A stretch of DNA of 48,760 bases from a virus. Every line of letters begins with the position of its first letter. Positions within the stretch are counted from its first letter, which is position 1. Below the pieces are notes generated by a model. It worked only from the letters and a program-made list of their open reading frames with translations. It did not search any database and had not been told where the DNA came from. Both the position numbers and the translations under genes were made by a program. Shown here piece by piece: positions 5,946-33,571 of the stretch. The DNA lies in IMG/VR virus record IMGVR_UViG_3300006162_000019, positions 1 to 48,760 of that record; one strand, 5' to 3'.

Positions 5946-8243
5946 TTAGTTTCCAACTCTAGAAATATTGAACCATGAAACAGATGCAGTGCTTCCAATT
6001 GATGGTGATGTTCCGCCAGCCCCAAGAAGAATTGTGACCTGATCACCTGCCTTAAATGGATAAGCAATAACACATCCAGAAGGAAAATATGTTCCAATGT
6101 TTCCAGACTGCTGAGAAATAATTGAAGCAAGTCCAAGGGTATCTGTGCCATTAATTCCAATATCAGCTTGAACAGATTGGTTTCCAATTGCTGAAAACGT
6201 AGTCACCATTCTGTTTTGTGAGCAAATTGAATATGAACCAGAAACTGGAATTGTGTAAACACCAGTAGTTGTATTGTAAGCATTATGAGTGTCTTTAACT
6301 TTACTTGTGTATGCAACCACCGCTGTTCCAGAAGCTAGAGACCCAGATATGGGAGTTGTATTTGCTGTGGTGTAAAATGCGCTAACACTCTCTGTTGCAG
6401 TCACAACGGCAGGTCCAGAAACCCTCATGATGGAAAGGCTTCCAGAGGTATTAACGGTTGTTGTTGCGCTGATTCTTAATGTGAGCAAGTTACCAGCAGC
6501 AAGACCTGGCAATAAAGCACATCCACCAGTATTATTTCCACCAGCCTGAGAGCCAATTGATCTAAACGAAGATCCATTTAGATAGATTGTCGCGTTCCAA
6601 GAAGTTGAGCCAAGATCTCCAATTGAACTACATCCAATGTAATCACCTGAAACTGGAACAGTGTAGGTGTCAGTCCCATTCCACGCTCCGTGAGAGTCTT
6701 TTGCAACAGAAGTAAAGCTTACGTTTGTCACATTGGCAGTTACAGATTGTGTTGCTGTTTTTGTAACACTTAGGTCAACAACACGGGTGTCTGTGTCAGA
6801 GCTGGCAACTGAATTTGAGCTCCATCCAACGATTGGCCAGATGACCATGAAATCAACGATTGCTCCAGTTCCAATATCCGATCCCAGCATTGCCGTTCCG
6901 GACGCAGAAGATGCGTCAATAAATTGAATTAAATTTGGAGAAGTTACTGTTGGCTGAAGGTTTGGATGAGACGATGAGGTCGACCATCCGCTCGCAGTTA
7001 TTGTTCCAACAGCAATGGTAGTATCCCAGCTAAGGCCAGATGGAAGCTGAACTGTTGCCGTTGCTCCAGTAGTTGTGCCAGTTGTGAATCGGCCTTTAAT
7101 AATAATATTTTTTCCAAGACGAGACCAAGAAACTCCGCTAGTTGTTACTGTTCCAAGTGACGCGCTGTAAGTTGGCGTGTAGCTGACAGGGTCCGACATT
7201 GATGGACCGATTGGCGCAGTCTGAGGCCCGACCGAGAAGTCATCCAAATAAATCGTGGTCGCTCCAGAAGTCGCATTCGCATTGTAGAGGGCGAATCGCA
7301 TGCTTGTTGTCGACGATGCGGTCTGTAGAGTGCCAGTGCAATATCCGACTCCAGATCCCTGCACCATGCAGAAATTTCCAGCAGATGTCAGCCACGCTGA
7401 ATTGGTCGCGTCCCACGCAGCCCAAGCAAACGAGTTGCTGCTTGTTCCTGAGAAGTTGTCATTCGCTGCGCCAGAGTTCGCTGTATAGTAGAACTTAACG
7501 GTGAGGACCTTAGCTTGGTCTTCGGTGTCAATTGTGAACGCGTTTGAGGCCAGCATATTTCCAGCAGTAGTAGCCGCAGAACTGACGTAAGAGAGAGAAT
7601 AGGACCCTGCTATTTGCCCAGAGGAAACTGTAGCAATAGATAAGTTCCCACTGGCCCCTGAACCAAAGGTAGGTGATCCCGTTGGAAGTCCATTTGTAAG
7701 AGTACCGATGGTCCCGAGTGACCACCCAGTCGTAGTTCCAAACTCAAAGTTTCCATTTCCTGTGTTGCCGTTATAGGTAGTGAGGTAGTTCTTGCTCCCA
7801 CCCGTTCCACCGATAACTCCTTTTGAGATCGCCGAAGAGAGTTGCTGGTTTGGGGTTACTGATGTCACCCAAATCTTTGTGTCGTTTATAAGTTGAGATG
7901 CTTGACCACCAAAAGTGATCGTGTCCCCAGTTCCGTTTCCGCCAGCAACCGCCGACATCTGAATCTGACCAGCAGAGCAGGTCCCTGGAAGGCCAACAAT
8001 CGTTGTGCCGCTTGTGATGTTTGCTGGAGTGGTTGAGTCGTAAATAAATTGACCAGCCGAGAGACCAGTTGTCGATCCAGGGCTTGCGATACAAGCATTG
8101 CCGCTTGTTAAGTTTCCAGTGGTTGTTAGGACCGCCGCTTGAATATTGGCAAGAGACTTAACGTCCTCATTTTGAATTTTTGCTTTCACGGCGAAGGCAT
8201 TGGTTGCCGCCAAGGTCGTTAAAAGTATGAGAATTTTTTTCAT
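5946..8243 (-). CDS. Signal-peptide-bearing fibre-like protein with CBM-like and C1q-like domains
   Basis: A 765-residue protein. Residues 1-18 form a Sec signal (MKKILILLTTLAATNAFA). A GNGNFEFGTTTGWSLG stretch around residue 165 resembles a carbohydrate-binding (galactose-binding-fold) module. Two C-terminal repeats each carry a KD(S/T)H-A-N-T...YT(V/I)PVSG(D/S)Y core and cysteines, the pattern of C1q/TNF-like jelly rolls used by trimeric receptor binders. The middle is a Ser/Thr/Gly-rich beta region. Start ATG at 8243 follows GGAGAG. Position after the baseplate fits a receptor-binding fibre, but a cleavable signal is not expected for a virion protein assembled in the cytoplasm. It may be an exported surface protein. 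Confidence 0.75.
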   Translation of the reverse strand: MKKILILLTTLAATNAFAVKAKIQNEDVKSLANIQAAVLTTTGNLTSGNACIASPGSTTGLSAGQFIYDSTTPANITSGTTIVGLPGTCSAGQIQMSAVAGGNGTGDTITFGGQASQLINDTKIWVTSVTPNQQLSSAISKGVIGGTGGSKNYLTTYNGNTGNGNFEFGTTTGWSLGTIGTLTNGLPTGSPTFGSGASGNLSIATVSSGQIAGSYSLSYVSSAATTAGNMLASNAFTIDTEDQAKVLTVKFYYTANSGAANDNFSGTSSNSFAWAAWDATNSAWLTSAGNFCMVQGSGVGYCTGTLQTASSTTSMRFALYNANATSGATTIYLDDFSVGPQTAPIGPSMSDPVSYTPTYSASLGTVTTSGVSWSRLGKNIIIKGRFTTGTTTGATATVQLPSGLSWDTTIAVGTITASGWSTSSSHPNLQPTVTSPNLIQFIDASSASGTAMLGSDIGTGAIVDFMVIWPIVGWSSNSVASSDTDTRVVDLSVTKTATQSVTANVTNVSFTSVAKDSHGAWNGTDTYTVPVSGDYIGCSSIGDLGSTSWNATIYLNGSSFRSIGSQAGGNNTGGCALLPGLAAGNLLTLRISATTTVNTSGSLSIMRVSGPAVVTATESVSAFYTTANTTPISGSLASGTAVVAYTSKVKDTHNAYNTTTGVYTIPVSGSYSICSQNRMVTTFSAIGNQSVQADIGINGTDTLGLASIISQQSGNIGTYFPSGCVIAYPFKAGDQVTILLGAGGTSPSIGSTASVSWFNISRVGN

Positions 8244-8252
8244 CGTCTCTCC

Positions 8253-8687
8253 TTAATATTTCGAGTAAACAGCCAACACAGACTGTCCGGTGGCAGGTGC
8301 AGTTGTCATTGTAATCACAGCTCCAGAGATAGTGTAGTCATAAGATGCTCCAGCAGTCAAAAGCTGCCCATCTAAGTAAACAGTCACACCATTTGTTGAG
8401 GCTGGGGTTGCAGTCATCGTGAAGGCAGTTCCAGATCCGTTTCCAAAAAATAAGTCCTGGTTGTATTGAACGGACACCGGAAGGTTTGAAAGAGTGTTTG
8501 AAGAGCCTGAAATTGTTTTGTTTGTGACAGTTTGGCTTGCTGAGTCTGACAGGATATTCGACCCAGTCGACGGAACTGAAAGACTGGTTCCGCCCGTGGA
8601 GTTCGTTATTGTATCGATCTGCTTCGACGTTGTTGATGACGCAAAAGCAGACCCACTGATAAAAATAAAAAATAACAATAATTTCAT
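8253..8687 (-). CDS. Short signal-peptide-bearing fibre-like protein
   Basis: A 144-residue protein with a Sec signal (MKLLLFFIFISGSAFA), then a module STTSKQIDTITNSTGG...VPSTG...SQTVTNKTISG that is clearly related to the N-terminus of the next fibre-like protein (8697-9815). The C-terminal about 70 residues form a beta module with a VTVYLDGQLL core and a TAPATGQSVLAVY end, the same small domain that occurs twice in the 9817-11241 fibre. ATG at 8687 follows AAGG. It may be a shortened paralogue or a subunit of a composite fibre. Confidence 0.75.
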   Translation of the reverse strand: MKLLLFFIFISGSAFASSTTSKQIDTITNSTGGTSLSVPSTGSNILSDSASQTVTNKTISGSSNTLSNLPVSVQYNQDLFFGNGSGTAFTMTATPASTNGVTVYLDGQLLTAGASYDYTISGAVITMTTAPATGQSVLAVYSKY

Positions 8688-8696
8688 CAACCAACC

Positions 8697-9815
8697 TTAG
8701 TTGCTTCGAGAAACTTCGTTCCAGAAACCATTTCCATCACAAGACAGAAGCAATTGACTATTTAAAGCACTGGTCCAGTTTCCATTCAAGTTCAATTTCG
8801 AACCGGCCAATGCCGAGTTGTCTTGCAGCTTCACTAAGTTGGTGGCCGATTCACCAATAACTGTCAGCATTTGTCCTGCTGCGGTACAAGCTGTGATTGA
8901 AGGAGTTGCAGTCACAGTTGTGGTACCAGCACCAGATGCCTGAATGAAAGCCATGTTCACATAAGTGGGAGTCGTAAGGACCACACCACCACCAGCAGTC
9001 ACAGAAAGTGGTGACCCTTGAGTGCCGCTTAAAGTTGGAGAATTGGATGCTGGAGCACTGCTTGTCCATGTTGATCCGTTTGAAGTAAGGACGTTTCCAG
9101 AAGTGCCTGGAGCAACCAAACTCACAGCAGATGTTCCGTTACCAACAACAACTGAACCAGAAGTCAAAGTGCTTGCTCCGGTACCACCATTTGCCACTGC
9201 CAACTGACCTGTTACGGCAGCTGATTGGCCTACGTTTACCGCTCCGAAAGCAGGAACACCACCAGAACCGGCTTGCAATACTTGATATTGCGAACCAGTC
9301 ACAGAAGTCACTGGCGAAGTACCAGCTCCAACTACGATTCCGTTAGATGTGATGCTTGAAGCACCAGTACCACCGTTTGCAACTCCGAGCTGTCCACTCA
9401 CCGCAGCAGCTTGTCCGAGTTGCAAGGCTCCAACAGTCGGAACACCAGATGCACCAGCTTGAAACACTTGATATTGAGAGCCCGCGGCTGTGATTCCCAC
9501 TGCCGAAGTACCGTTACCATAAACCATACCATTTGAAGTCAAAGTCGAAGCGCCAGTACCGCCATTCGCAACACCCAATTGACCAGACGAAATTGCCGAA
9601 GCAGGAATCGCCGTGAAGGTATTTGAAGCACCTGACATTGATTTATTTGTGAGAGTTTGAGTCGCACTGTCAGAGACTAAATTCGCACCAGTCGCAGGAA
9701 CGGCCAAAGCAGTTCCGCCAGAGGCGTTGATTGAGTCAATCTGCTTCGACGTGGTGGATGCTGATTGGGCTTCGGCCGTAACAGCTAAAGCCAAAATTAA
9801 AAGAATTCGCTTCAT
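8697..9815 (-). CDS. Signal-peptide-bearing fibre-like protein with VANGGTGAS repeats
   Basis: A 372-residue protein. Residues 1-16 look like a Sec signal (MKRILLILALAVTAEA). An N-terminal STTSKQID module shared with the 8253-8687 gene is followed by three repeats of 62-63 residues headed by GQL(G/A)VANGGTGAS, a hallmark of trimeric phage tail fibres, and a C-terminal module ending WNEVSRSN that is related to the end of the upstream 9817-11241 protein. ATG at 9815 follows AGGAG; the longer open frame upstream overlaps the neighbouring gene and is rejected. Probably a fibre or fibre-like adhesin. The export signal is the odd part. Confidence 0.8.
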   Translation of the reverse strand: MKRILLILALAVTAEAQSASTTSKQIDSINASGGTALAVPATGANLVSDSATQTLTNKSMSGASNTFTAIPASAISSGQLGVANGGTGASTLTSNGMVYGNGTSAVGITAAGSQYQVFQAGASGVPTVGALQLGQAAAVSGQLGVANGGTGASSITSNGIVVGAGTSPVTSVTGSQYQVLQAGSGGVPAFGAVNVGQSAAVTGQLAVANGGTGASTLTSGSVVVGNGTSAVSLVAPGTSGNVLTSNGSTWTSSAPASNSPTLSGTQGSPLSVTAGGGVVLTTPTYVNMAFIQASGAGTTTVTATPSITACTAAGQMLTVIGESATNLVKLQDNSALAGSKLNLNGNWTSALNSQLLLSCDGNGFWNEVSRSN

Positions 9816-9816
9816 G

Positions 9817-11241
9817 TTATTGTCTCCTTGTGTTTTCGTTCCAATTGCTACCGTCCCATTCGTAGTCAATTGATTGGTTATCGGTTAAGTTACACATTCC
9901 GTTCTGATTAACGCCATTTCCAGATGCACTGGAAATCTTCAAAAAGTTTATCGGATCAACTCCTTTTAATCTTAATAGTTGACCGAGCGTTGTTCCAGCG
10001 GCAATCGCCGGACTGGACGTTATCAGTTGGGCACCTGGACTGTTTGGCTTAACGTACCATGTCTGATCCATAGACGTTGTGGGGACAATTCCAATGGTTG
10101 GATCTATCAAAATGGGACTGACAAAATTTCCATGAACTTCTTTTGCGCCACCGCCGCCACCACTAGTTGATGGAGCTGTCAAAAGGTTGGGCCAAGAGTT
10201 CATCCAATATTGCACTTCGACTGGAGGTTGACCGTTTGCTGGCTGTGCTCCAGGATTGAATAAAATATAAGACTGCTGTCCAGTTTCAGAGACCAAGGCC
10301 CACTGGTCAGGGCTCACCCATCCGCCATCAACAAAAACATCGACTGCGGCCTGATAAAGTGGCTTTTGAGAGAGAGTGAATTTTTGATTAGTTCCATCGA
10401 CAGCGCCGACAGCCACCTCTGTGATTGCTTGAACTGGATTTTGAGAATTTGGAGAGTTCGCTACATAGGCACACCAAATATCCTGTCCAATTGCAAGTGG
10501 TGAAGAGAAAGAAATTATGTTTGTCGAAAGACTATAACTTCCAACTTCAGCCTTCAAACTATCAACATAGACGATCAAACTTCCATTTGTGATTGGCGAT
10601 TGAGAAAGAGTGTAATTTAAATTCACACCATCAATCGCACCGACTGGAATTTCTCTGACAAAAACTGGTTGCTGTGCAAATCCAAATCGAGAATACAATC
10701 GAACTGAATAGTCATAAAGAATTTCGGTGGCGTTTGTTGCTCCAGCTGGCACTTGAAGACCAGCTAAAATAAATCCAGTTCCAGTGTAGGCGGGATAGGC
10801 AGGACTTGCGTTTGGTATTCCTGGAATTATTTTTAAAATAAAATCATCATGTAAATTTAAATTTACAGTGGTGAGTGGATCAGATGGCTTTGGAATTGGA
10901 GTGTCTCCAACTTGAGCGTATTCAATAACAAGAAGGTCCCATCGTGGAAGTGAACCACCAACAGCGGGAGTGGCAATTGGACTTCCAGTCATTCCTGGCA
11001 AAATTGCAGTCAGATCACCAATAGTATCAAAACCAATTCCGTTTCCGACAGATATTCCCATATCGCCAGCATCAGGAGTGAGCACAAAAGGAGTTGGATA
11101 GATTGAAGTGATGAGGACACCTGGTCCCCACATTGAAACAGAGACAAGATCGATAAGGTCTTGCAAGCCCTGGACAGTAAATTCCATGTCCGTTTTATCA
11201 ACAAGTTTTCGATCTAGCGAGAGCCAATTCCGTTGCAACAT
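9817..11241 (-). CDS. Tail fibre / baseplate-attached fibre protein
   Basis: A 474-residue protein directly after the gpI/gp48-like tail gene, where Mu and P2 relatives carry their fibre. It lacks a signal peptide, unlike the next three genes. Around residues 190-350 there are two tandem modules with the pattern G(A/V).DG.N..(Y/F)TLSQ.P and V.VD, a common phage fibre domain. The C-terminus ends in YEWDGSNWNENTRRQ, matching the C-terminal module of the next protein. ATG at 11241 follows GGAGG. It likely anchors the receptor-binding apparatus to the baseplate. Confidence 0.75.
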   Translation of the reverse strand: MLQRNWLSLDRKLVDKTDMEFTVQGLQDLIDLVSVSMWGPGVLITSIYPTPFVLTPDAGDMGISVGNGIGFDTIGDLTAILPGMTGSPIATPAVGGSLPRWDLLVIEYAQVGDTPIPKPSDPLTTVNLNLHDDFILKIIPGIPNASPAYPAYTGTGFILAGLQVPAGATNATEILYDYSVRLYSRFGFAQQPVFVREIPVGAIDGVNLNYTLSQSPITNGSLIVYVDSLKAEVGSYSLSTNIISFSSPLAIGQDIWCAYVANSPNSQNPVQAITEVAVGAVDGTNQKFTLSQKPLYQAAVDVFVDGGWVSPDQWALVSETGQQSYILFNPGAQPANGQPPVEVQYWMNSWPNLLTAPSTSGGGGGAKEVHGNFVSPILIDPTIGIVPTTSMDQTWYVKPNSPGAQLITSSPAIAAGTTLGQLLRLKGVDPINFLKISSASGNGVNQNGMCNLTDNQSIDYEWDGSNWNENTRRQ

Positions 11242-11290
11242 TTAAAATCCTCCAAACGATTCTTGCAGTATTCCACCGACCATTCAAGCA

Positions 11291-12037
11291 TCAAGTTGGG
11301 GCAGCTGGTGGACTGGCATTGTTCATAATTATGTGCGTACTGCGAGCCGGTTCAAATTTTGTCAAGTCAGCATCCAATAGGGCCAAGGTCGTAGCGTCTG
11401 CGTTTCCATAAATCCGAACTTCATAAGAGTATGCTACGTCTTGGATTTCTGCCATTTGAAGAGCGGTGATTCCTGCCGCTGCATAATCAAGACTGCAATC
11501 CAAAGGCGTAAATCCAACCAAATCACACCAAATTGGATCAATAGTTGAAAGATAGGTGTTCAGACCTAAAGAGCTGTAGCCCAAAATCCAAGCACCAGTA
11601 TTTCCGTCATTATTGACCTGACCAGAAAGTGGCAAAATGGCAAAGCTCAGACCGATTGGGCCCAAAATACCAGCCACGATGCCAGTGATATAAGGAACAG
11701 AAAGGCCACCAGTCGCCCGATATTTTGCCAAAAGATTTTGAATTCTTTGCGTGTAAGTGAGTGACGAATCTTGAATTGCTCCAAAGAAATCCTTCTCCCA
11801 TTGAGAAAGTCCATCAGACATTAAAGTTGTGATGAAGAAATTATTGTAAACAGATTGGCCCTGAGTTTCGAAATTAGAAAGCAAATTTGCATGAGCCCTT
11901 AATTCAGCACTCGAATATGAAATCTTTGTTGGGTCTGGATTGTTTGCTCGGTCCTGTGAATAAACTCCAGCTGGCAACTCACCTAAGAGCAGGTCCAAAA
12001 TTTCTTCAGTATTGAGAAAATATGGATTGAGTCCCAA
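11291..12037 (-). CDS. Baseplate/tail protein, Mu gp48 or P2 gpI type
   Basis: A 248-residue protein in the standard place after baseplate J. Its pattern (a WEKDFFGAIQDSSLTYTQRI segment followed by LLAKYRATGGLSVPYI and a C-terminal VRIYG strand) matches the DUF2313-like / gpI group that finishes the baseplate rim and connects fibres. The apparent start is TTG at 12037, one base before the baseplate J stop region, with GGGGG upstream. It is recognised by order and weak motif similarity, so the subfamily is uncertain. Confidence 0.75.
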   Translation of the reverse strand: MGLNPYFLNTEEILDLLLGELPAGVYSQDRANNPDPTKISYSSAELRAHANLLSNFETQGQSVYNNFFITTLMSDGLSQWEKDFFGAIQDSSLTYTQRIQNLLAKYRATGGLSVPYITGIVAGILGPIGLSFAILPLSGQVNNDGNTGAWILGYSSLGLNTYLSTIDPIWCDLVGFTPLDCSLDYAAAGITALQMAEIQDVAYSYEVRIYGNADATTLALLDADLTKFEPARSTHIIMNNASPPAAPT

Positions 12038-13270
12038 TTACATCGCCCCCACTGTGATTGTGCCTGGCGCTGGCAATTGATTTTGGCTTATCGTGTAGTC
12101 AATCGCTGGTGGATTTAAAGGCAACACTTGCCAGTCTGCCAGTATTGGAATGATGCCATTCAAAACTCCAGTGTTCTGATTCGGCACTCCTGATAACCAA
12201 ATATCAAGCCCGTCTTCAATATCAGCCGCGACAACCCACCCACCAGTCTTGCCTGGCAAGGACCTTCCACCAACGGCGTACTTGTAAAGCACCCTTGAAA
12301 CCTCTCGCTGAACGAGCTGCTGACAATTTAAATTTAAAGGATTGTTCACTGAATCAGAAGGAACACTTGTTGCGGTCAATCCTTGAGCATAAATCACATT
12401 CACGCTGACTGGAATTGTGATCTCAGTTGGTGAAAAAACAAATGGACAATCAGTCAAAGGAACATTGGCATTGTAATAAGCCTGAACCGCATTAATGATG
12501 TCAGTGGTTGGGATTCGGACGATTGATTGTCCAGCAGTCACAGCCGCGTCGATGTCTGTCGTTCCAGCTGTGATGTAAACGCCTACAGTTCCAAGTCCGC
12601 GAACAAATCTGTAAATATTGGCAGACCTAACAGCCGATGAAGCGGCAAAAGCAAAAGCTGGATAGTCAGTTTCATTCCCGCCAGCTGGAGCATTTTGTCT
12701 TCTGGTGAGGAGCCTTGAGCGGTAGCTATCGACTGTTTCAGTGTCAGATCCACCACCAATTGTAACGATGACTGAAGCTGGAGTGGTGACACCAGAAGGT
12801 GGGCTCACAACTGTCAGTGTGTCGGGCTCTGCGATATTGCCTATTTGTCCAGCAGAAAGTGCCTGGACTGAAACCACCAGCACTCCACCAGAAATCGTTC
12901 CGCCAGAAGTGTTCGTGTAAAGGATATTTGTAGGGCCATAAAGGAATGTCAGCTCGCCAGGAGTGATGACAGTCCCATTGGTTCCAGATATTTGAACAGC
13001 ACTGGCTCCCGCGGCTTGAGTGGCTCCTGATTGGGCAATTCCGTAGTCCTGACCAATAATGGTGAGGGCGCTGGGCCTTGCAGTTGAAATAAATGGGTCA
13101 TTATTGATCTTTGCCAAATCTCCATAGAGACCAGACACCACACCAGCGATAACCTTTCCGCGAATCACAAAATCTGAATTGTTATCGTTTGTGTTTAAGT
13201 CTGGCTTGATGGATTTAAGAATCTGAAAATATTGGGCGGCTGATTGGCTTGGTGTTAGAAAAGTTGGCAA
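12038..13270 (-). CDS. Baseplate J-like protein
   Basis: A 410-residue baseplate wedge protein of the gpJ/gp47 family. Typical features: LTIIGQDYGIAQSGATQAAG near residue 75, the VVSPPSGVTTPASV linker, GGSDTETVDSYRSRLLTRRQ near residue 173 and a GTVGVYI strand. This family forms the ring of wedges that opens on contraction. The start is TTG at 13270 preceded by GGGGG, just after the TAG of the gp25-like gene. Neighbours on both sides are baseplate genes. Confidence 0.92.
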   Translation of the reverse strand: MPTFLTPSQSAAQYFQILKSIKPDLNTNDNNSDFVIRGKVIAGVVSGLYGDLAKINNDPFISTARPSALTIIGQDYGIAQSGATQAAGASAVQISGTNGTVITPGELTFLYGPTNILYTNTSGGTISGGVLVVSVQALSAGQIGNIAEPDTLTVVSPPSGVTTPASVIVTIGGGSDTETVDSYRSRLLTRRQNAPAGGNETDYPAFAFAASSAVRSANIYRFVRGLGTVGVYITAGTTDIDAAVTAGQSIVRIPTTDIINAVQAYYNANVPLTDCPFVFSPTEITIPVSVNVIYAQGLTATSVPSDSVNNPLNLNCQQLVQREVSRVLYKYAVGGRSLPGKTGGWVVAADIEDGLDIWLSGVPNQNTGVLNGIIPILADWQVLPLNPPAIDYTISQNQLPAPGTITVGAM

Positions 13271-13271
13271 A

Positions 13272-13646
13272 CTAGACCCCCGTAAAATTCAGTTGGCTTG
13301 ATATTGTTGTGGCAGCAGGAGCAATTGCAATATTATTGGCCGATCCGGTGGGCGTTGTCTCTGTATTTTGAGTATTCACTCCCGAAGCTTGACCAGTTTG
13401 GATCAATTGAGCATTGATTGCGTTCTTTACCATAGTCGAAAAAGTCGCCTCGACCCCAGCATCCCTCATTCTATTTTGCAGCGTGTAAAGAAGTGAGCCT
13501 TGTCCGGCAACAGAATACATCCACTGGCCCTGCGGAACCATGAGGGCAAAATAGGCTTTGTCCAAAACAGTATCGCTGGCAACGGGTGAACCATTCAAAA
13601 CAACGTAGTCCTTTTTTAAAGGATTCATCAATAAATTCTGTGCCAT
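13272..13646 (-). CDS. Probable gp25/W-like baseplate wedge protein
   Basis: A 124-residue protein immediately before baseplate J, the usual slot for a gp25 or Mu gp46-type wedge subunit. It has the feature of an early conserved stretch (DTVLDKAYFALMVPQGQW) and a helix that would follow (LLYTLQNRMRDAGVEA), with a low-complexity Ser/Thr/Asn C-terminus. The family call rests more on position than on motif. ATG at 13646 follows GGAGG. Confidence 0.65.
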   Translation of the reverse strand: MAQNLLMNPLKKDYVVLNGSPVASDTVLDKAYFALMVPQGQWMYSVAGQGSLLYTLQNRMRDAGVEATFSTMVKNAINAQLIQTGQASGVNTQNTETTPTGSANNIAIAPAATTISSQLNFTGV

Positions 13647-13684
13647 CTTGCCTCCATCGTATCAGCCAAAAATCACTTACGCCA

Positions 13685-13888
13685 TCAACTAACAGTGCCG
13701 CCAGACAATGGGCCACCACCGCTTGGGCAAGTCCCATTTGCTACCGCGTTTGCCTGAATGTAATCCACAATAGCCTTCCCCAGTGCGTTACAAAAATTGG
13801 TGAGTTCGGTATCGTTTGCTGGTGCTCCAGACAAAGCAATAATTGCTGCCTTGATTGCTGCGCCCATTCCTGTTTCTGTCATTGCCAT
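13685..13888 (-). CDS. Small baseplate-region protein, 67 residues
   Basis: A short protein, MAMTETGMGAAIKAAI then NALGKAIVDYIQANA, a type often found between spike and baseplate wedge genes of Mu-like tails. Function is unknown. The glycine-rich C-terminus is disordered. ATG at 13888 follows GGAGTG. Its similarity to proteins at the same place in related phages is from memory of the pattern and was not searched. Confidence 0.75.
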   Translation of the reverse strand: MAMTETGMGAAIKAAIIALSGAPANDTELTNFCNALGKAIVDYIQANAVANGTCPSGGGPLSGGTVS

Positions 13889-13891
13889 AAA

Positions 13892-24746: not shown

Positions 24747-25163
24747 TTAGAAACTAAAAATTTGAACGCCTTGCTCTGTGAAAGATCGGCCACCCAAAGC
24801 GCTGATTGCGCCAGAGTCCAAACCAACCAACATTGCTTGAAGCAATTCGCCTCCACTAATCCAAACAATTTCTGAGCCGTTGCCAGAAGCATCTGGAGCT
24901 GCGTACTCAGACAAAACACCAACAGCCACTTGAGAGCCATCAGTTGCGGTAGACAAATACGGCTTGTAAAAACCAGCATCACCACCGCTTGAAGCAAAAC
25001 CCAAAACTGTTCCAGCGTGAACAATCTGACTGTCTTGAGAAGGCCCAAGTCGGCCGCCGTTGAACTTTACTAGATCAGGGCGCTTGGCAATGATCTGTTT
25101 AAAGTTTGAACGACTGTCCTGTGGAATAAACAGTGAATCTTTGTATTCGGGTTGATTTGCCAT
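24747..25163 (-). CDS. Head decoration protein (lambda gpD-like)
   Basis: A 138-residue protein with a HAGTVLGFASSGG turn and GVLSEYAAPDASG core typical of gpD-like capsid stabilisers that trimerise at local three-fold axes. It lies between scaffold and capsid genes. ATG at 25163 follows AAAGGAG. No unusual feature. Confidence 0.85.
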   Translation of the reverse strand: MANQPEYKDSLFIPQDSRSNFKQIIAKRPDLVKFNGGRLGPSQDSQIVHAGTVLGFASSGGDAGFYKPYLSTATDGSQVAVGVLSEYAAPDASGNGSEIVWISGGELLQAMLVGLDSGAISALGGRSFTEQGVQIFSF

Positions 25164-25187
25164 TTGCTTTCTCCTTTAAAAATTAGT

Positions 25188-26093
25188 TTATGCTTTAACA
25201 CCTGGTTGTTGCTCTTGAGGAGCTGGCGGAGCGGATTCAAGTGCTTCACCTTCTTCACTCTCAGAACTCATCAATTCATCAACCATTCCCGCCATGCGAG
25301 CGAGATTTGTTTTCACTTCATCAAGCTCACCTTCAAGATGTTCCATTGCGAGCTTGTAGTCCTCAGACTTCACTTCATCGACACCACTCATGTGCTTTTT
25401 AGCTGCCATGTGATGTTCCATGCAATGCTTCATCAACTCTTCATGGGCTTTTTTTGCTTCTTCAATATTCCCAGCTGCCAAATGCCCATGAACCGCAGCA
25501 AGGTGTTGTTTCAGTTTTTCGATATGCTCTGGAGCTGCACCTGCACGATGTTGCTCTGAAGCTTCATCAGCAAGTTTTTTAGCGCGATGTTCTTCACTTG
25601 CTTCATCCGCCAACTTCTTGCCCATCTCATGGCCCTTGCCATGATCCTGGTCGGCTTCATCGTCAGCAGACTTTAGCTTGGCTCCCATTTTTTTCAGTTC
25701 GCCGCGAACCTCAGCCTTAAGGCGAGTCATCTGTTTGCGCTCGAGCTCTTTTCCAATCCCAGCAAAGTCTACAGTAGCAGAAGGATCAGAAGAGCCGCGT
25801 TGACCAGCGATGATCTTTGGCTCCAAAGCCTCATAAGTAGACATCAGTGTGTCGATTGCCTCAGTTGGAAGAGCAGAGAGTTTTTTCAGATCAATTTTTT
25901 TCACTTCAGCAGGAGTCAATTTTCCAGACTTCATCAATCGAGTGAGTCGGCCAGAAATTTCACCTTGAACTTTTGCCAGACGAACACCTTCACCGGAAGC
26001 AACAAGCTTTGTGCTGAGCTTGGTGAGAGATTCTTTCATGTCAGTGAGTTTTGTGAGTCGTGCCTTTGACGCTGCCAAAGATTTTTTAGACAT
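25188..26093 (-). CDS. Scaffold protein from a nested in-frame start
   Basis: Inside the protease gene the ATG at 26091-26093 (MSKKSLAASKARL) is preceded at 8-base spacing by a perfect AAAGGAG (26102-26108), better than many starts in this genome. It would yield a 301-residue scaffold lacking the protease domain, as Mu gpZ from gpI or lambda Nu3 from C. The coiled, histidine-rich sequence suits a removable internal scaffold. Confidence 0.72.
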   Translation of the reverse strand: MSKKSLAASKARLTKLTDMKESLTKLSTKLVASGEGVRLAKVQGEISGRLTRLMKSGKLTPAEVKKIDLKKLSALPTEAIDTLMSTYEALEPKIIAGQRGSSDPSATVDFAGIGKELERKQMTRLKAEVRGELKKMGAKLKSADDEADQDHGKGHEMGKKLADEASEEHRAKKLADEASEQHRAGAAPEHIEKLKQHLAAVHGHLAAGNIEEAKKAHEELMKHCMEHHMAAKKHMSGVDEVKSEDYKLAMEHLEGELDEVKTNLARMAGMVDELMSSESEEGEALESAPPAPQEQQPGVKA

Positions 26094-26669
26094 TTCGCTT
26101 GCTCCTTTAGAGGTTTGTTTCCCTTTACTAAGTAACATTGCGCCAGGGGCAGCTGGTTCAACCACAGCAGAGGTTTCACCCAGAGTATCAGCATTTTCAT
26201 CAATGCCAACACTTAAATGATACACCCGACCATCTTTCACCTTAGACACATTGTCTTTTCCAAGGAAAGTGAGGTCTGTCACCGCACAAGCTACATTCTT
26301 TCCGACCTTGGGCACATCACGAATTTCAAATCGCAACTTGCTGGTCAATCGGCCAAGAACATTATGAGACGAGTTTGGGTCGTGACTGTCAAGCAAAGGT
26401 GGAAACGCGCCGTCCGGCATCTTGTCCCACCCACCATATTCACCTGCTAATTTTTCAAGCAATGCGTTTTGGTTCTCGACAATTCTTTTAATTCGCTCTG
26501 CGTCGAAGGGCTTTGTTTCCCCATCCATTGATTGATAAGTGACACCTTCGCCTTCGGGTCCTGAGTGAACAAGGATTGCTGGCCTGACGAGCTTTTCATC
26601 TGAATCTTTGCCTTCAGCCAATCGGCTTTCAACAAGTCCAGTTGATTCTTTCATTCTCTTAAAGCTCAT
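25188..26669 (-). CDS. Capsid maturation protease fused to scaffold (Mu gpI-like)
   Basis: A 493-residue protein. The N-terminal 170 residues resemble the Mu I/gp32 serine protease group, with a PPLLDSHDPNSSHNVLGRL stretch (candidate catalytic His). The C-terminal 300 residues are a lysine/glutamate/histidine-rich helical scaffold with a tandem KKLADEASE(E/Q)HRA repeat and histidine clusters. A second start inside (ATG at 26093) would give the scaffold alone. It precedes decoration and capsid genes. ATG at 26669. Confidence 0.85.
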   Translation of the reverse strand: MSFKRMKESTGLVESRLAEGKDSDEKLVRPAILVHSGPEGEGVTYQSMDGETKPFDAERIKRIVENQNALLEKLAGEYGGWDKMPDGAFPPLLDSHDPNSSHNVLGRLTSKLRFEIRDVPKVGKNVACAVTDLTFLGKDNVSKVKDGRVYHLSVGIDENADTLGETSAVVEPAAPGAMLLSKGKQTSKGASEMSKKSLAASKARLTKLTDMKESLTKLSTKLVASGEGVRLAKVQGEISGRLTRLMKSGKLTPAEVKKIDLKKLSALPTEAIDTLMSTYEALEPKIIAGQRGSSDPSATVDFAGIGKELERKQMTRLKAEVRGELKKMGAKLKSADDEADQDHGKGHEMGKKLADEASEEHRAKKLADEASEQHRAGAAPEHIEKLKQHLAAVHGHLAAGNIEEAKKAHEELMKHCMEHHMAAKKHMSGVDEVKSEDYKLAMEHLEGELDEVKTNLARMAGMVDELMSSESEEGEALESAPPAPQEQQPGVKA

Positions 26670-26673
26670 CGGT

Positions 26674-27534
26674 CTATTGTTTCCTTCCGGCGACCCAACC
26701 TGGAGGCAAAGGAGTCACTCTTCGCTTTGATGGGTCTCTTGATGGGTCTTCCAACATCTTACGATTTCCAGGAATGTTTGCAAGTGGAATCAATTCGCTC
26801 CTGCAATTGTAGTGACAAGCTGGGGTGTTCTCTTTCAACTCTTTGGTGCCAGGACGATAGACCAATCCATGTCTCGTCCGGCAAATCCCAGTGGTCGAAC
26901 TGTCCCTGTTTGCTTGAAACAAAAAGCCGATGATGTCTTCATCATCACTGAAAAAGCTCACCTGCACTTTGTTGAAGTAGTTGGTGGTCTCTGTTCGAAA
27001 AAGGGTTTCAACTCGGCTTTTTGTCACTTTCCAAGCCTTTCGGAGTTCATCTTTGACTTCTTTAGGGGACTTTTCGCCAGTTTGTAATTGCGGCCCAATT
27101 TTAGCAAACTTCCGATCAAGCTTTTTAAAATAGGCAGACCGAAGCCGATCGACTATCTTTCGCGATCTCTTTTGGATAGTCCCCCATGTCCGCTTGTCCG
27201 AAAAAAACCTGACCAAAGGTGGTAGCTTGTTCGGTATTCCAAGCGGAAGTTTCGCTAAACTTTTCTTGTCGCTCTGCATCTTTGGCTTTTGAACTTCTTT
27301 GGCTATTTGGCTGGTGTGATAGGCTTGCTCGACAATTTTTCGATAATATCTCTCCATCACAGCGTACATGAGATCTGGATTTGGTTTTGAATAGGAGCCC
27401 TTTTCAATAAGCTCATCGATGGCCTTTTCGAGAAGTCCTTGCATGGCGACTTCCATTTGTCTGAAGGCTCTTAAGGTGAGTTGATCCTGTACGGCCCAAC
27501 TATGTCTTTGAAATCTTTGCTTCCAATTCATCAT
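26674..27534 (-). CDS. Minor head protein (Mu gpF / SPP1 gp7-like)
   Basis: A 286-residue protein. The C-terminal domain is diagnostic: ETLFRTETTNYFNKVQVSFF, then GICRTRHG and TPACHYNCRSELIPL, the gpF/SPP1-gp7 head morphogenesis motif with conserved cysteines and histidine. It is ejected with DNA or aids portal assembly in relatives. It begins MMNW at 27534 just after the portal and an 82-residue gene. Well supported. Confidence 0.9.
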   Translation of the reverse strand: MMNWKQRFQRHSWAVQDQLTLRAFRQMEVAMQGLLEKAIDELIEKGSYSKPNPDLMYAVMERYYRKIVEQAYHTSQIAKEVQKPKMQSDKKSLAKLPLGIPNKLPPLVRFFSDKRTWGTIQKRSRKIVDRLRSAYFKKLDRKFAKIGPQLQTGEKSPKEVKDELRKAWKVTKSRVETLFRTETTNYFNKVQVSFFSDDEDIIGFLFQANRDSSTTGICRTRHGLVYRPGTKELKENTPACHYNCRSELIPLANIPGNRKMLEDPSRDPSKRRVTPLPPGWVAGRKQ

Positions 27535-27603
27535 TCAACCTTAATGGTGATCCGTCTGAGACTCAAACTCAGTGCTGCGAGTGCCACCCCCAACAACCCC
27601 ACA

Positions 27604-27852
27604 TCATGTGGCCGGATCAAGAAATTTTTTGTCTTTAAAAGTTTCAATGTTCTTGAGACAAATTTTGATTCCGTCAGCAACGCCAGCGTAATACTTGTAA
27701 GCCTCTTGATCGCCACTAATATTTTTTTGAGCTGCCATCCGAACATACTCGTTCGCGGCATGAGTAAAGAAGTGCATCAGCATTAAATACTCATCGACCT
27801 TATCAAGCGGGTGAAGGCTTGAGTCGCTCTGGTAAATTTTCTGATTAGACAT
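27604..27852 (-). CDS. Hypothetical protein after the portal, 82 residues
   Basis: Helical protein, MSNQKIYQSDSSLHPL onward, ending KKFLDPAT. The start at 27852 overlaps the last codons of the portal gene, with AAGGTG six bases upstream inside the portal gene; the longer upstream reading would overlap the portal further and is rejected. The 69 bp between it and the gpF-like gene hold no convincing gene. Function unknown. Confidence 0.7.
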   Translation of the reverse strand: MSNQKIYQSDSSLHPLDKVDEYLMLMHFFTHAANEYVRMAAQKNISGDQEAYKYYAGVADGIKICLKNIETFKDKKFLDPAT

Positions 27853-29398
27853 CCTCAACACCTTGGATTGGCTTTTCTGGTTCCATGATGTCCTCAAATC
27901 CTGGAAGTGAATCCACTCCCAATGGTGGACGAGGCTGAGCGGGTTTCAAATTCATTTTCTGTCTCACTCCGTCCATGTCCACTTTTAGATCCGGTCCCAT
28001 GTAACCAGAAGTCGTAAGACTTGAATAAATATTGGCGAGCTTTTCCATGACTTCCGGATCAAACTCCTCAACGATGAAGTCTCCAAGGCCTTCTTTGCGC
28101 CATTCCTTTTCGGGAAAATTGTAAGCAATAATTTTACGAATGAACTGGTCAAGGATGCCCTGTTTGTAAGACTTCAGCTTGCCATCGATACACTGACGAA
28201 AGATTTTGTGGTGTTCTTGACCAAGAGCGAATGATCCGCCGCCGTCCCCGCCCATAATGAGTGGAGGTATAAGCATACCGCGCATGATTGCTTTATTGAA
28301 ATAATCAACCCCGTCCTTGAAAACATTCATGTCTCCTTGGGTCTGGATCGCTTCAATGGCGTACTCCTCATCTTTGCGTCCAGGCAGAACCACAAACGAA
28401 GAGTTGTGAAGCTTTTTGAAAGTCTCTGCCATCGCCAAGTCAGCTCTCATCATTTTCTGACCTGGATTGAGTGGATCATCACTCATATTATTTTGCAGAA
28501 CAGTATCATTCGGAGCGGCCCAACCAACTAAGAGCGGTGTGCCTTTTCTGTCGGCAGCGATAACCCACATTTTAAGGAAGGCATCTTTCGCGACCCAGTT
28601 TTTGTAAATAGCCCTGAAGACCGAGCGGCCGTAGGGACTATCGAACCTTCCAGTGGATGATCCCCGCAAGTGGATAACGTGGTCTTTGGGTATTTTGACC
28701 GTAAGGTACGTAAGATCAGCACTGATACGAATTGGATAAGGATAATCACCAATAGAGGCATATAGGTCTGGACGAAAGCCATCCAATTCTCCATTTCTGA
28801 TTCCATAAACGTAGGAGTTCATGAAGGTCTGATGAAATCTTTGATACTGAAAAATTCCGTCAGGCAAAACTTCACCGTGGCGATTTACCGCAAACACCAT
28901 AGTGAGTGGAGCATAGGTGACTAATTTCTTTGGCAAGAAGGCGGGAGCCCCATCGAAGTCCTCATCGAACTTCCAGACCTGCTCAGTGACAGAAAATCCT
29001 GACCACTCAGCTGAAAACATCTCATCTAAATTCTCATGCCAAGAGCCTTCCATTTGATCTAAGGCTTTTCGGACGAATCTTTGGATCTTTGGAATTGGAT
29101 GGACGTAATCACCAAACCTAGCAATCATCGCAAGGTTCATGAAGTTCACACCAGCATTTAAAGTCTCATCGGTATCAAGCATTCGCTTGAATGTCTCAAC
29201 TGAAACTGTCGAAGGATTGGCAATGAATCTTGAAAGTGATCCATAGAGCTGCGGGACCGCTGTTCCCATTTGAACTTGCTCTTGCTCTAAATGAGTGAGC
29301 TCATCGTAACGATTCTTCAGCTCTGTTTTTATGTTAGGGGCGACATCATCAATCCAGTCCAGCAAAGAACTAGATTGGGTCGTTGGCAATTCTGACAT
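27845..29398 (-). CDS. Portal protein (Mu gp29 / DUF935-like)
   Basis: A 517-residue portal. Matches the DUF935 pattern: DTDETLNAGVNFMNLAMIAR, then LDEMFSAEWSGFSVTEQVW, HVIHLRGSSTGRFDSPYGRS and MLIPPLIMGGDGGGSFALGQ. It would form the dodecameric vertex for DNA entry. Preceded by two small structural genes and followed by an 82-residue gene and gpF-like protein, a Mu-type order. ATG at 29398. Confidence 0.92.
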   Translation of the reverse strand: MSELPTTQSSSLLDWIDDVAPNIKTELKNRYDELTHLEQEQVQMGTAVPQLYGSLSRFIANPSTVSVETFKRMLDTDETLNAGVNFMNLAMIARFGDYVHPIPKIQRFVRKALDQMEGSWHENLDEMFSAEWSGFSVTEQVWKFDEDFDGAPAFLPKKLVTYAPLTMVFAVNRHGEVLPDGIFQYQRFHQTFMNSYVYGIRNGELDGFRPDLYASIGDYPYPIRISADLTYLTVKIPKDHVIHLRGSSTGRFDSPYGRSVFRAIYKNWVAKDAFLKMWVIAADRKGTPLLVGWAAPNDTVLQNNMSDDPLNPGQKMMRADLAMAETFKKLHNSSFVVLPGRKDEEYAIEAIQTQGDMNVFKDGVDYFNKAIMRGMLIPPLIMGGDGGGSFALGQEHHKIFRQCIDGKLKSYKQGILDQFIRKIIAYNFPEKEWRKEGLGDFIVEEFDPEVMEKLANIYSSLTTSGYMGPDLKVDMDGVRQKMNLKPAQPRPPLGVDSLPGFEDIMEPEKPIQGVEDV

Positions 29399-29400
29399 TT

Positions 29401-29784
29401 TTAAACTCCTGCAAATCTCTCCGCGATGACGTTGATAGATTGGGTGGCAATAAAGATTGAATCCTGTCCGCTAATTGTAATGACAATTTGAAGATCACCA
29501 ATCCCAAGAGCAAGTAAAGCAGATTGAGCCTTGGTGTAAAAGAACCGGAGCTGTCCAAGTTGTGCTTTCACAATAGCAACTTGAGCGTTTGTCATTTTTA
29601 ATGTCAAGACTGATGCGTCGGCGTTCAGCATCGAGACTTTTATTTCAGTGGCTCCTGTTAAATCAAAATAAGGATTCGGCGAACCGCAATTTGGTTTTGC
29701 TTTCAGCGTGACGTTCACATATCCGTCTGAATTGGCGTTTATGTTTTTCACTTCTGCCGAACAATCAATTGGGTCAAGTCCCAT
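29401..29784 (-). CDS. Hypothetical structural protein, 127 residues
   Basis: Small, beta-rich; lies directly upstream of the portal. Contains VNVTLKAKPNCGSPNPYFDL and ATEIKVSMLNADASVLTLK strands of immunoglobulin-like appearance. No motif recognised. ATG at 29784 follows GGAGG. Together with the next two genes it forms a three-gene block of small virion-like proteins. Confidence 0.75.
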   Translation of the reverse strand: MGLDPIDCSAEVKNINANSDGYVNVTLKAKPNCGSPNPYFDLTGATEIKVSMLNADASVLTLKMTNAQVAIVKAQLGQLRFFYTKAQSALLALGIGDLQIVITISGQDSIFIATQSINVIAERFAGV

Positions 29785-29800
29785 AGTGCCTCCAAAATAA

Positions 29801-30184
29801 TTAGCTCAATTCAATTATGATTCCCTGTTCTGAAAATACCGCCATGATGTCAGACTTGTATGTGATTAAATTTGCCAGAACATTTAGCAATGAATAATCA
29901 ACCACAAATGATCTTGAGCTTGCCGAGTAGTCAGTATTGGGAGTTGTAAGAGTGTTGTCTGTGAAAACTTTTAATTCAATAATGTAAGGTGAACCATCTG
30001 GTGGTGTCCAAACCGCTCCGTAGGAATTTGTGCCTGGCAGATTTAAGGCGGCCACCGTACTTCCAACCTGTGACCAAGCACCGGATGCGAACTTGTAAAC
30101 TAGCATCCCGACATTGAGTGATGGGGAATCGTAAGTGACTTCCACTGGAACTGGATTTAATGATTGAAGAATTGTCGTCCCCAT
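29801..30184 (-). CDS. Hypothetical structural protein, 127 residues
   Basis: Beta-rich N-terminus (PVPVEVTYDSPSLNVGMLVY), with WTPPDGSPYIIELKVFTDN and a helical C-terminus. An Ig-like or decoration-like domain is plausible but not demonstrated. ATG at 30184 follows AGGAG. The neighbouring genes have similar size and spacing. Confidence 0.75.
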   Translation of the reverse strand: MGTTILQSLNPVPVEVTYDSPSLNVGMLVYKFASGAWSQVGSTVAALNLPGTNSYGAVWTPPDGSPYIIELKVFTDNTLTTPNTDYSASSRSFVVDYSLLNVLANLITYKSDIMAVFSEQGIIIELS

Positions 30185-30193
30185 TTATGCTCC

Positions 30194-30622
30194 TTAGCTC
30201 TTTGCCTTGTACAAATCCCAGTTGATTGCAACCTGCGGAGCCAAAGTCCCAGTTGAATTGTAAACAACTCTCAAACAAAGCCCTGTGATAATTTTGGCGA
30301 CATTCGGAAGGTCTTTATCAAATTTAGTTTGCTTGTCATCACAAACACCAAAGTTTGAAACGAATTGCTGGATCACAAGACCTGCTCCAAATCCCAAGAT
30401 GTTGTTTTTATCAACCACCTGAAGATTGAATGTGTCTCCGAAATTGGCATTCTTCACATTCAACTGACCACCTGCCAGGAAACAATCATCAGCCAAAAGA
30501 TAGTCAATATTTTGTGATGCTTGTCCAGCCACGAGAGTTGCTTGAACTCCTTGGCCGTTGAAGTTCACATTGTCGCGGGTCATGTCTGATAATTTCTCAA
30601 GAGTGAGTGTGCTGTTTTGCAT
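30194..30622 (-). CDS. Hypothetical structural protein, 142 residues
   Basis: Beta-rich protein with NIDYLLADDCFLAGGQLNVK and FNLQVVDKNNILGFG segments. A short jelly-roll-like structural protein is likely, possibly a head fibre or decoration component. Start ATG at 30622 follows AAGGAGAG. It follows the large signal-peptide protein in transcription order. Confidence 0.75.
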   Translation of the reverse strand: MQNSTLTLEKLSDMTRDNVNFNGQGVQATLVAGQASQNIDYLLADDCFLAGGQLNVKNANFGDTFNLQVVDKNNILGFGAGLVIQQFVSNFGVCDDKQTKFDKDLPNVAKIITGLCLRVVYNSTGTLAPQVAINWDLYKAKS

Positions 30623-30631
30623 TTTCTCTCC

Positions 30632-33571
30632 TTAAGGCCCTGTACAATTCAGTGATGAATAAGTGTACGTGACACCAGTTCCAGCCGCTGAAGTGAAAGC
30701 CCTTGTATATTTCGCATTCATGTTTGGAATCAATATCACAGAAGTACCAACTCCAGATGGAGTCACTGTGTAAGTGCTTGTTGCCCAGTTGGAGTTGTCT
30801 TCAGAGAATTGGACAGCAATCGTTGGATTGGTTGTCGCAGCTGATTGTGAATAATAGAAAGCACCAGTGCTGCATCCTTCAGTGTACCAAGTTGATCCAG
30901 CAGACGAAGCTGTTGTTGGGACCATGGTTCGATCAAAAAGGTTGTAATGCTGTCCAGCTGCTACTTGAGAGCCCACCCGCCAAAGAGCCATCGTGAATGA
31001 TGGTGTGGTTCCACCAATCACACAAGAATATTCAAACCTGTTTCCAGAGTTTCGCAATAGCGGAGAAATCAGAGGAGTTGCAAGCACTCCAGTGACACGC
31101 TCAAAAGTGTAAACTGTTCTGGTGTAGTTCGCTGCCGAGTCGAGCGTTTCAATAATTGAGCAGTCCATCGTTTGTCCGGTTCCAGACGATGCAGTCACAG
31201 CCAATTCAAATGCTTGAGAAATTGCTCCAGCAGCAGGAGTGATTGCCAAAGTAAAGGTCGCGGTCTTTGCTACTGATGCCAAATCATTCACAGCGGCGTT
31301 CGTTGCTAAATTGTCAGATGCCACGTTTGTGACTGATGATACAGTCGAAACGGTGGTGACAGTTCCAGATGAAATGGTCGCTGTTGTTGATAAGTTTCCT
31401 GCGGTATTCTGGGCCACCTGAAAAACTGCTGGTGTCCAAGTGGTCTGAGAAAATCTTGAGAATGCTTGGATAGATCCACCAGTGATGGTTGTCACGATCC
31501 TAAGTCTCATGTAGTTGAAAGAAATTGGAAAAGTGTAAATCGATTGAGAGGCTGATGCTGTGATTGCTGTGGTGATCGGAGTACCAGTCAAAATCAATTG
31601 TGAATAAACTGGAATCGATTGGAAGTTCACGTTGTCGTTGGAGCCCTCAAATAGAAACGTGCCTGCGGTACCGGTCGAAGTGACCTGAACAGATCCAGAA
31701 TGAAATCCACCAACAAAAGTTGATGCTGTTCCTGAAGGATTGGTCAAAATATTATTTACAATTGCTGTTTGAGCAGACGCTCCTGTCACTGTCAAATCTG
31801 GAGTGTTTACGTTTGCAATAACTGTTTGCTGAGAAAGAGATCCATCAATCGCTACAGAAATAGTTCCAGAAGTAAACGCTGAAGCCCTCGCTCTGATGTT
31901 GGTGAATCCACCACCAGTGATTGAATAAGTGCCGTTTGTGGTGATGGTTGCAGTTTGTTGATAGGGCAAAATTGACGAAACGATATTGATTGGGAGCTGG
32001 GTCCAGTTGGAATCAGGAGTTTGGCCCTCAATAACTACTGTCGCCGACCAAGTGCCAGTGATAGAAAAGGTTGTGGTGTAAACACCCTGAGCAGAAATAG
32101 AAACAGTTCCACTGACTGCCGTGATGTTCCCTGTGTTTGTGATGTCAGTATTCTGAGCGCCAGTATTAGCTGCAATGGTGGTCAAATATCCAATCTCAGA
32201 GGTTTGATTCGCCGAGGTTGCGGCTCCAGACGGAAGCGGAAGTGATGCCGCCGAAACTGGTTGAGTCGCAGGAAAATTTGAAACGCTAACGCTTGGTGTT
32301 CCAGAGATAGTTGCAGAGACCGATCCACTTACAGGAACAGTCTGGTCAGAAGCAATATTGACTGCCAAAGAATTGGCGGTCGTTTTGGCTCCTAAAGTGG
32401 TTGGGAGCTGTCCAGAGATTTGAGTTTGTAAAGCACTTGTGGCCGCCCCAGATGGAAGTGGAAGGCTCGCTGCACTTACGGGTTGTGTGGCGGGAAAATT
32501 GCTCACACTTACAGAAGGTGTGCCAGAAATGGTAGCTGTGACTGGAATTGAAGATTGATCAGATGCTATCGTCACGGGCTTCGAATTTGCCATTGTCTTT
32601 TGACCAGTCACCGGAGTTGTATTGGTGGCAATAGTTGAAAGAGTGGCGTTTCCTGAAGTCTGAAGAGCTGAGTTTGCAGCACCACTTGGAAGTGGCAAAC
32701 TAGCAGCGCTCACCGGCTGTGTTGCTGGAAAATTCGAAACGGAAACAGAAGGAGTACCAGAGATCGTTGCTGTCACAGATCCGCTCACTGGAACTGTTTG
32801 ATCTGATGCTATATTAACAGGCAAAGAGTGAGCTGTCGTGGCAGCTCCTTGTGATGGTATATTGCCCGTGTTTGTGGCAATCGTTCCAAGTGAAGTCTGA
32901 GCTGTTGCTTGGTTTGCGGAGGTGGCAGCACCGCTTGGCAGAGCACTCGATGTCACAACTACGTTTTGACTTGAAGGAAAATTAGATACAGAAACACTTC
33001 CAGAAATTGGCTGGGTCACTGATGATCCATCAACCTTGATGCCGTTGGCAGAGGTTGTGATCTTTGAGTCAATACTTGCCTGATGAACTCCGTTAGCAGT
33101 TTCGGTTGTATTGATGGTTCCAAGGTCTGTGTGATTGGCCGACTTAAAAGCATTTAAATCGGAATCAATTTGAACTTGATTGGCCGCAGTCGCAGCAGGA
33201 CTCAATAAAGAAGTGAGAAGGCTATTGATGCCAAGTAAATCAGTATGGTTGGCAGACTTAAAACTCAGAAGGTCCGAATCAATAGTTGTCTGAAGGGCTG
33301 ATGTTGAGGCTCCTGTTGGCAATGTGAATGTCCAAGGAGCCTGACCTTGCTGGACCCACCATGAATTGGCTCCACCGCCATTAGGTGATCCTTGATTTGC
33401 TGACGAAGTACCACCACCAGGATTTTCTACATAAACTTTCAAAGCATCAGTGACGTTTCCGATTGGAGTTGCATCGGTGGCACCTTTTAGCTTTACGATT
33501 CCTGGAGGTGGGGTGTCAGCGATAGCGTAAAATGAAAACAGAATTGCCAACAAAATATATTTGAATTTCAT
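30632..33571 (-). CDS. Large repetitive surface protein with signal peptide
   Basis: A 979-residue protein. Residues 1-18 form a Sec signal (MKFKYILLAILFSFYAIA). Residues about 190-490 hold at least three copies of ISGTPSVSVSNFPATQPV followed by SAASLPLPSGA, joined by VNIASDQTVPVSG linkers that are common in phage virion proteins. The C-terminal part has several beta domains (TFSITGTWSATVVIEGQTP, FLFEGSNDNVNFQSIPVY) and paired cysteines near the end. ATG at 33571 follows GAGGAG and overlaps the previous stop. It is encoded among head genes, not tail genes, which makes a head fibre or exported protein possible. Confidence 0.75.
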   Translation of the reverse strand: MKFKYILLAILFSFYAIADTPPPGIVKLKGATDATPIGNVTDALKVYVENPGGGTSSANQGSPNGGGANSWWVQQGQAPWTFTLPTGASTSALQTTIDSDLLSFKSANHTDLLGINSLLTSLLSPAATAANQVQIDSDLNAFKSANHTDLGTINTTETANGVHQASIDSKITTSANGIKVDGSSVTQPISGSVSVSNFPSSQNVVVTSSALPSGAATSANQATAQTSLGTIATNTGNIPSQGAATTAHSLPVNIASDQTVPVSGSVTATISGTPSVSVSNFPATQPVSAASLPLPSGAANSALQTSGNATLSTIATNTTPVTGQKTMANSKPVTIASDQSSIPVTATISGTPSVSVSNFPATQPVSAASLPLPSGAATSALQTQISGQLPTTLGAKTTANSLAVNIASDQTVPVSGSVSATISGTPSVSVSNFPATQPVSAASLPLPSGAATSANQTSEIGYLTTIAANTGAQNTDITNTGNITAVSGTVSISAQGVYTTTFSITGTWSATVVIEGQTPDSNWTQLPINIVSSILPYQQTATITTNGTYSITGGGFTNIRARASAFTSGTISVAIDGSLSQQTVIANVNTPDLTVTGASAQTAIVNNILTNPSGTASTFVGGFHSGSVQVTSTGTAGTFLFEGSNDNVNFQSIPVYSQLILTGTPITTAITASASQSIYTFPISFNYMRLRIVTTITGGSIQAFSRFSQTTWTPAVFQVAQNTAGNLSTTATISSGTVTTVSTVSSVTNVASDNLATNAAVNDLASVAKTATFTLAITPAAGAISQAFELAVTASSGTGQTMDCSIIETLDSAANYTRTVYTFERVTGVLATPLISPLLRNSGNRFEYSCVIGGTTPSFTMALWRVGSQVAAGQHYNLFDRTMVPTTASSAGSTWYTEGCSTGAFYYSQSAATTNPTIAVQFSEDNSNWATSTYTVTPSGVGTSVILIPNMNAKYTRAFTSAAGTGVTYTYSSLNCTGP

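Follow-up and report, generated by a model that had tools for sequence, protein, structure and literature searches.

The window, that is, the whole stretch of DNA analysed here, is a 48,760-base virus record in which nearly all genes lie on the minus strand. A minus-strand run encodes a T4-like terminase, a Mu-like portal, a Phage_cap_E capsid protein, a sheath-like protein, baseplate genes and a fibre array, and the array is followed by a run of small genes that includes one for a spanin-like lipoprotein. A FolE/QueE/QueD-like run was recognised by eye at 2016–3779 and 48237–48752 (both minus strand), together with a Vut_1-type putative transporter whose Pfam score falls just under the cut-off, and the gene at 710–1681, which has no Pfam match, perhaps encodes a transglycosylase. 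Together, these genes suggest 7-deazaguanine modification of DNA or tRNA.

The fibre array is located downstream of gpJ/gpI-like baseplate genes. Its first gene (9817–11241, minus strand) encodes a non-exported adaptor or fibre of 474 aa that combines two T7-fibre-like domains with a tip domain lacking a Cys pair. Three fibre genes, all on the minus strand and all with predicted signal peptides, lie behind it. Fibre 1 (8697–9815; 372 aa) contains GGTGAS repeats and, at its C-terminus, a tip domain bearing a Cys pair. Fibre 2 (8253–8687; 144 aa) carries a T7-fibre-like C-terminal domain, and fibre 3 (5946–8243; 765 aa), with 8 Cys, joins a KIQNEDVK-type N-terminal domain to a CBM-like one and two jelly rolls of the C1q-like type. 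A fourth signal-bearing, fibre-like protein (30632–33571, minus strand; 979 aa, 4 Cys) is encoded in the head module, between a C92 peptidase gene and the small genes that precede the Mu-like portal. The peptidase gene directly upstream of it (33568–34152, minus strand) encodes a permuted papain-like amidase (Peptidase_C92). The signal-bearing genes thus share their strand and the late structural gene run with virion genes.

The four proteins are rich in Gly, Ser, Thr, Asn, Ala and Val and low in charge, and look like trimeric adhesins, which would make them trimers. Fibre 2 matches the tail fibre family phrog_18673 (3.5e-5) and, weakly and below the cut-off, PF03906; these known fibre modules and the position after the baseplate genes identify the array as one of tailed-phage fibres. 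The AlphaFold monomer of fibre 3 is poor (mean pLDDT 52.5) and good for domain hints only; Foldseek matched this model to chains of C1q and Caprin-2 (target TM of about 0.7–0.77, E down to 3e-12), so that the low-confidence model has the C1q/TNF-like jelly-roll fold, and the CBM-like domain and both C1q-like jelly rolls found by Foldseek have a weak sequence echo. The fibre motifs listed for the four genes in the first-pass annotation were therefore roughly right, with GGTGAS in fibre 1, NKT/NKS in fibres 1 and 2 and the CBM- and C1q-like domains in fibre 3; the head-module protein has ...SVSNFPATQPVSA... repeats instead.

Signal peptides on four fibre genes

All six-frame ORFs of at least 60 aa in the window were scanned with a rule-based signal peptide scorer. 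Applied to 100 kb of E. coli K-12 for calibration, the scorer called 12/12 exported proteins, 3/3 lipoproteins, 0/43 cytoplasmic proteins and 4/21 membrane proteins. The four fibre-like genes scored 7.15–7.77 and provided four of the best five signals. The only other real gene near their level (score 6.84) is 40901–41152 (minus strand), whose 83-aa product carries a signal peptide, the sole other strong one in the window, and a lipobox-like stretch (MRYMLILFLISSCAHA).

Each of the four N-termini has the positive n-region, hydrophobic h-region and AxA-type site near residues 16–25 expected of a Sec/signal peptidase I substrate, and the four lack a lipobox or second membrane helix. In fibre 3 the signal peptide (8190–8243, minus strand; 18 aa) ends in ...TNAFA↓V, where the arrow marks predicted cleavage after A18, and reads MKKILILLTTLAATNAFA↓VKAKIQNEDVK. 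That of fibre 2 (8640–8687, minus strand; 16 aa, ...GSAFA↓S, after A16) reads MKLLLFFIFISGSAFA↓SSTTSKQID and that of fibre 1 (9768–9815, minus strand; 16 aa, ...VTAEA↓Q, after A16) reads MKRILLILALAVTAEA↓QSASTTSKQID. The head-module protein begins with MKFKYILLAILFSFYAIA↓DTPPPG (33518–33571, minus strand; 18 aa, ...FYAIA↓D, after A18). The first-pass annotation had assigned Sec signal peptides to these four genes without giving a strand; all four are confirmed, on the minus strand. It had also taken the signal-free neighbour 9817–11241 as an internal control, which is correct, and each of the eight genomes examined shows the same pattern.

Wrong start codons were ruled out because a Shine–Dalgarno sequence precedes every start (all minus strand): AAGGAG at 8249–8254 for fibre 3 and at 9824–9829 for fibre 1, and the Shine–Dalgarno-like TAAGG at 8695–8699 for fibre 2 and GAGGAG at 33579–33584 for the head-module gene. 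Chance hydrophobic ORFs were likewise rejected, as the scan found a signal on 0/23 non-fibre or adaptor structural genes, 9817–11241 included, and the signals are conserved across phages. Independent contigs rule out an assembly artefact.

Conservation of the signals and paired cysteines

The three-gene tail array with signal peptides is present in about ten other environmental phages, which range in GC content from 0.31 to 0.65; several have no relative of the portal, as is true of most of the further phages reached by fibre homology. The order is an adaptor without a signal, then tip-type, T7-domain-type and KIQNEDVK-type fibres, each with one. In the IMG/VR capsid relatives the signals lie on the same fibre genes despite divergence to about 35–60% identity, and an unrelated fibre-like gene with a signal peptide recurs in the head module. 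The trait is all-or-none: every fibre behind the adaptor bears a signal in signal-positive phages and none does in signal-negative phages. Among ORFs with an intact 5' end, 18/19 with the tip domain carry a signal, as do 14/75 with a T7-fibre-like domain (61/75 have none). Eleven of those 14 are members of the T7-domain family found in the array itself; the other three (L148, L183 and L188) come from another group with hydrophobic N-termini. Catalogued phages gave no DNA match to the window, and no relatives of the KIQNEDVK domain or of fibre 1 were found among 50,697 phage records.

Fibres of L128, L148, L183 and L188 (at about 3.6–4.2, 2.7–3.3, 3.6–4.2 and 0.7–1.5 kb, respectively) form this second group, in which a hydrophobic segment lies ahead of a fibre start of the form VTQ(I/L)(N/D)LATQV..LP and several members have even cysteine counts; these fibres may have become exported or anchored independently. 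Separately, a 413-aa protein of L083 (record G026; 10030–11271, minus strand) has a signal peptide, though the tail fibres of that phage have none, and contains a ...VQVSNFPAVQ... motif resembling that of the window's head-module fibre.

Signal-free homologues of the KIQNEDVK-type fibres start exactly at the cleavage point, as M-AGKIQNEDVKS compared with ...LALA↓KGKIQNEDVKSL. Thus, signal-negative phages (L048, L050, L052, L053, L055, L058–L061 and L066, with the general form M-(A/S)(G)KIQNED(V/I)KS) begin where a signal followed by ↓KGKIQNEDVKS would be cut in signal-positive ones; the signal has been gained by, or lost from, a complete fibre. The adaptors at the head of signal-positive and signal-negative arrays are of shared types (L041/L052, 48% identity; L046/L052, 41%; L042/L050, 42% over the N-terminus), and the docking partner therefore appears unchanged by the signal.

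The cysteines point to an oxidising compartment. Two columns of the tip domain hold C...C in 12 sequences and G/A...W in 8 and are never mixed (20/20), and the T7-domain family has two other columns that hold both cysteines in 3 sequences and neither in 7. Five genomes have the Cys pair in the exported tip; in these, the tip of the non-exported sibling carries G/W-type residues in its place. Among domain-collected fibres that contain cysteine, counts were even in 22 and odd in 0 of the signal-bearing proteins, compared with 14 even and 19 odd for those lacking a signal; the signal-bearing set takes in the three fibres with hydrophobic N-termini, and the p-value (Fisher, p = 4e-6) is indicative only because the sequences are related. 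Conserved signal peptides, signal-free homologues that start at the cleavage site and paired cysteines, all sequence features, strongly support export, and we consider export and cleavage of the signal-bearing fibres very probable.

Possible fates of the exported fibres

What export serves is less certain. The first-pass annotation had proposed adhesive purposes: exclusion, receptor masking or, in a predator host, attachment to prey. Its export claim stands, while the mature N-terminus, which would equal that of signal-free phage fibres, and the shared adaptor types favour virion fibres. We thus prefer, at about an even chance, virion fibres that would reach maturity in the periplasm and join particles at lysis over exclusion or decoy adhesins, because virion-type N-termini are kept, adaptor types are shared, the signal is all-or-none per genome and a head-module gene is included. 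On this view, the four proteins would be true phage fibres that have acquired a cleavable Sec signal peptide. Translated late in infection alongside other structural genes, they would be secreted via SecYEG into the periplasm, where signal peptidase I may trim them to the canonical fibre N-terminus and where they may trimerise and, if cysteines are present, form disulphides. Once holin and endolysin open the inner membrane, mature fibres would meet particles assembled in the cytoplasm; the unchanged N-terminal domains could dock onto the non-exported adaptor 9817–11241, and the 30632–33571 protein onto the head. T4 and P22 particles can take up fibres or tailspikes in lysates, and we know of no precedent for adding tailed-phage fibres from the periplasm. 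Somewhat more tentatively still, tailed phages that make disulphide-bonded receptor-binding fibres in the periplasm and complete the virion only on inner-membrane break would have a second assembly compartment.

Besides the missing precedent, two observations weigh against periplasmic virion fibres. In a wider set of signal-bearing proteins that includes the long KIQNEDVK-type fibres, 24 cysteine counts are even and 5 odd. Moreover, each signal-positive phage retains a fibre that is not exported. The C-terminal tip of this fibre is a homologue of the tip of exported fibre 1, and the fibre could be the sole one on the virion and the real receptor-binding protein. The exported fibres would then coat the infected cell or, freed at lysis, act as soluble adhesins that occupy receptors and so exclude superinfection or keep particles from re-adsorbing to debris. 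Co-evolution between adaptor and exported tips would speak for receptor masking; their similarity within genomes is slightly raised, at a borderline level (permutation p = 0.054). Tailed phages do have exported exclusion proteins such as the periplasmic T4 Spackle (PMC7677548). However, the virion-type N-terminal domain is retained behind the signal, an outer-membrane anchor or barrel was not found, and several unrelated exported proteins, one in the head module, seem too many for exclusion. We therefore regard such non-virion adhesins as possible but rather unlikely.

More doubtful is a predatory, Bdellovibrio-type host, in which the fibres would share the route that displays its MAT-like adhesins, reach the predator surface and alter prey or phage attachment. 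B. bacteriovorus displays signal-bearing, phage-fibre-like trimers, the MAT (mosaic adhesive trimer) proteins, two of which have TNF-like tips and disulphides (PMC10769870), and Bdellovibrio phage phi1422 encodes two fibre-like proteins with signal peptides, gp68 and gp75, when 0/5 of its phiPLPE-group relatives on other hosts have one. Against this, the Bdellovibrio phages phi1402 (L190) and MAC3UK (L192) have no signal-bearing fibres, and the trait is therefore not obligatory for Bdellovibrio phages; the idea that all of them export fibres was dropped. In addition, the signal-positive phages cover a wide GC range (0.31–0.65) and the solved MAT structures gave no sequence match. The predator host raised in the first-pass annotation thus gains one positive case and two negative ones and is suggestive, no more.

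It is very unlikely that the hydrophobic N-termini are uncleaved membrane anchors or vestigial, leaving the proteins in the inner membrane or cytoplasm: cleavage sites are less clear in L148, L183 and L188, but nearly all members of the signal-bearing families have good AxA-type sites and high scores, cleavage would give back the signal-free N-terminus, and the cysteines are paired. Least probable are prophage-expressed lysogenic-conversion (moron) adhesins, as, although exported fibre-like adhesins would suit an altered lysogen surface, integrase and repressor were not seen among the genes scanned, the capsid and fibre 3 profiles had no match in the contigs of 84,980 genomes (two scans) and the genes are part of the late structural run.

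Comparison with known systems

Tailed-phage fibres are normally made and folded in the cytoplasm, and signal peptides with paired cysteines on the fibres studied here thus point to a route of fibre assembly or surface display that is so far undescribed; the literature we searched yielded no description of signal-bearing tailed-phage fibre arrays. Signals conserved on whole arrays, with covarying disulphides, would represent either a new way of completing virions or a new way of dressing the host in adhesins, and alter the way in which to express and study signal-bearing receptor-binding proteins.

Filamentous phage coat proteins pIII and pVIII are virion proteins with cleaved signal peptides, but belong to membrane-extruded ssDNA virions rather than tailed dsDNA phages. 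T4 Spackle is likewise an exported phage protein that acts in the envelope, yet it is a small periplasmic lysozyme inhibitor and no fibre (PMC7677548). Ordinary tailed-phage fibres (the T7-like N-terminal domain family PF03906/phrog_18673 and the KIQNEDVK-type of L048, L050 and L052) have the same N- and C-terminal modules and the same gene order behind the adaptor as those of the window; unlike them, they have no signal peptide and unpaired cysteines are common. In the "caprin-2 domain protein" of Manatee Spring podophage ct8d5349 (MW202898; 30% identity to fibre 3), a signal peptide precedes CBM-like and C1q-like domains and the gene follows a signal-free tail fibre gene, although this is a podovirus with a single signal-bearing fibre in the stretch examined.

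In phi1422, as in the window, a signal-bearing gene (gp68) comes directly after one for a signal-free tail fibre (gp67). However, tblastn gave no significant match between gp68 or gp75 and the window, and gp68 and the fibre 3 family match weakly as profiles (hhalign probability 14%). Both are annotated as hypothetical, and the passages of PMC3391216 consulted here do not mention their signal peptides. The MATs of B. bacteriovorus combine a signal peptide with phage-fibre-like modules and TNF/C1q-like tips containing disulphides (PMC10769870). Their genes, however, lie on a predator chromosome, and the signal is followed at once by a conserved, beta-rich domain of ~130 aa. The window's genes, although they too place a signal on phage-fibre-like proteins, belong to the structural run of a virus record and include a KIQNEDVK-type phage-fibre N-terminal domain. 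Phage arrays whose fibres carry signals are also a possible source of the fibre adhesins with signals in predatory bacteria.
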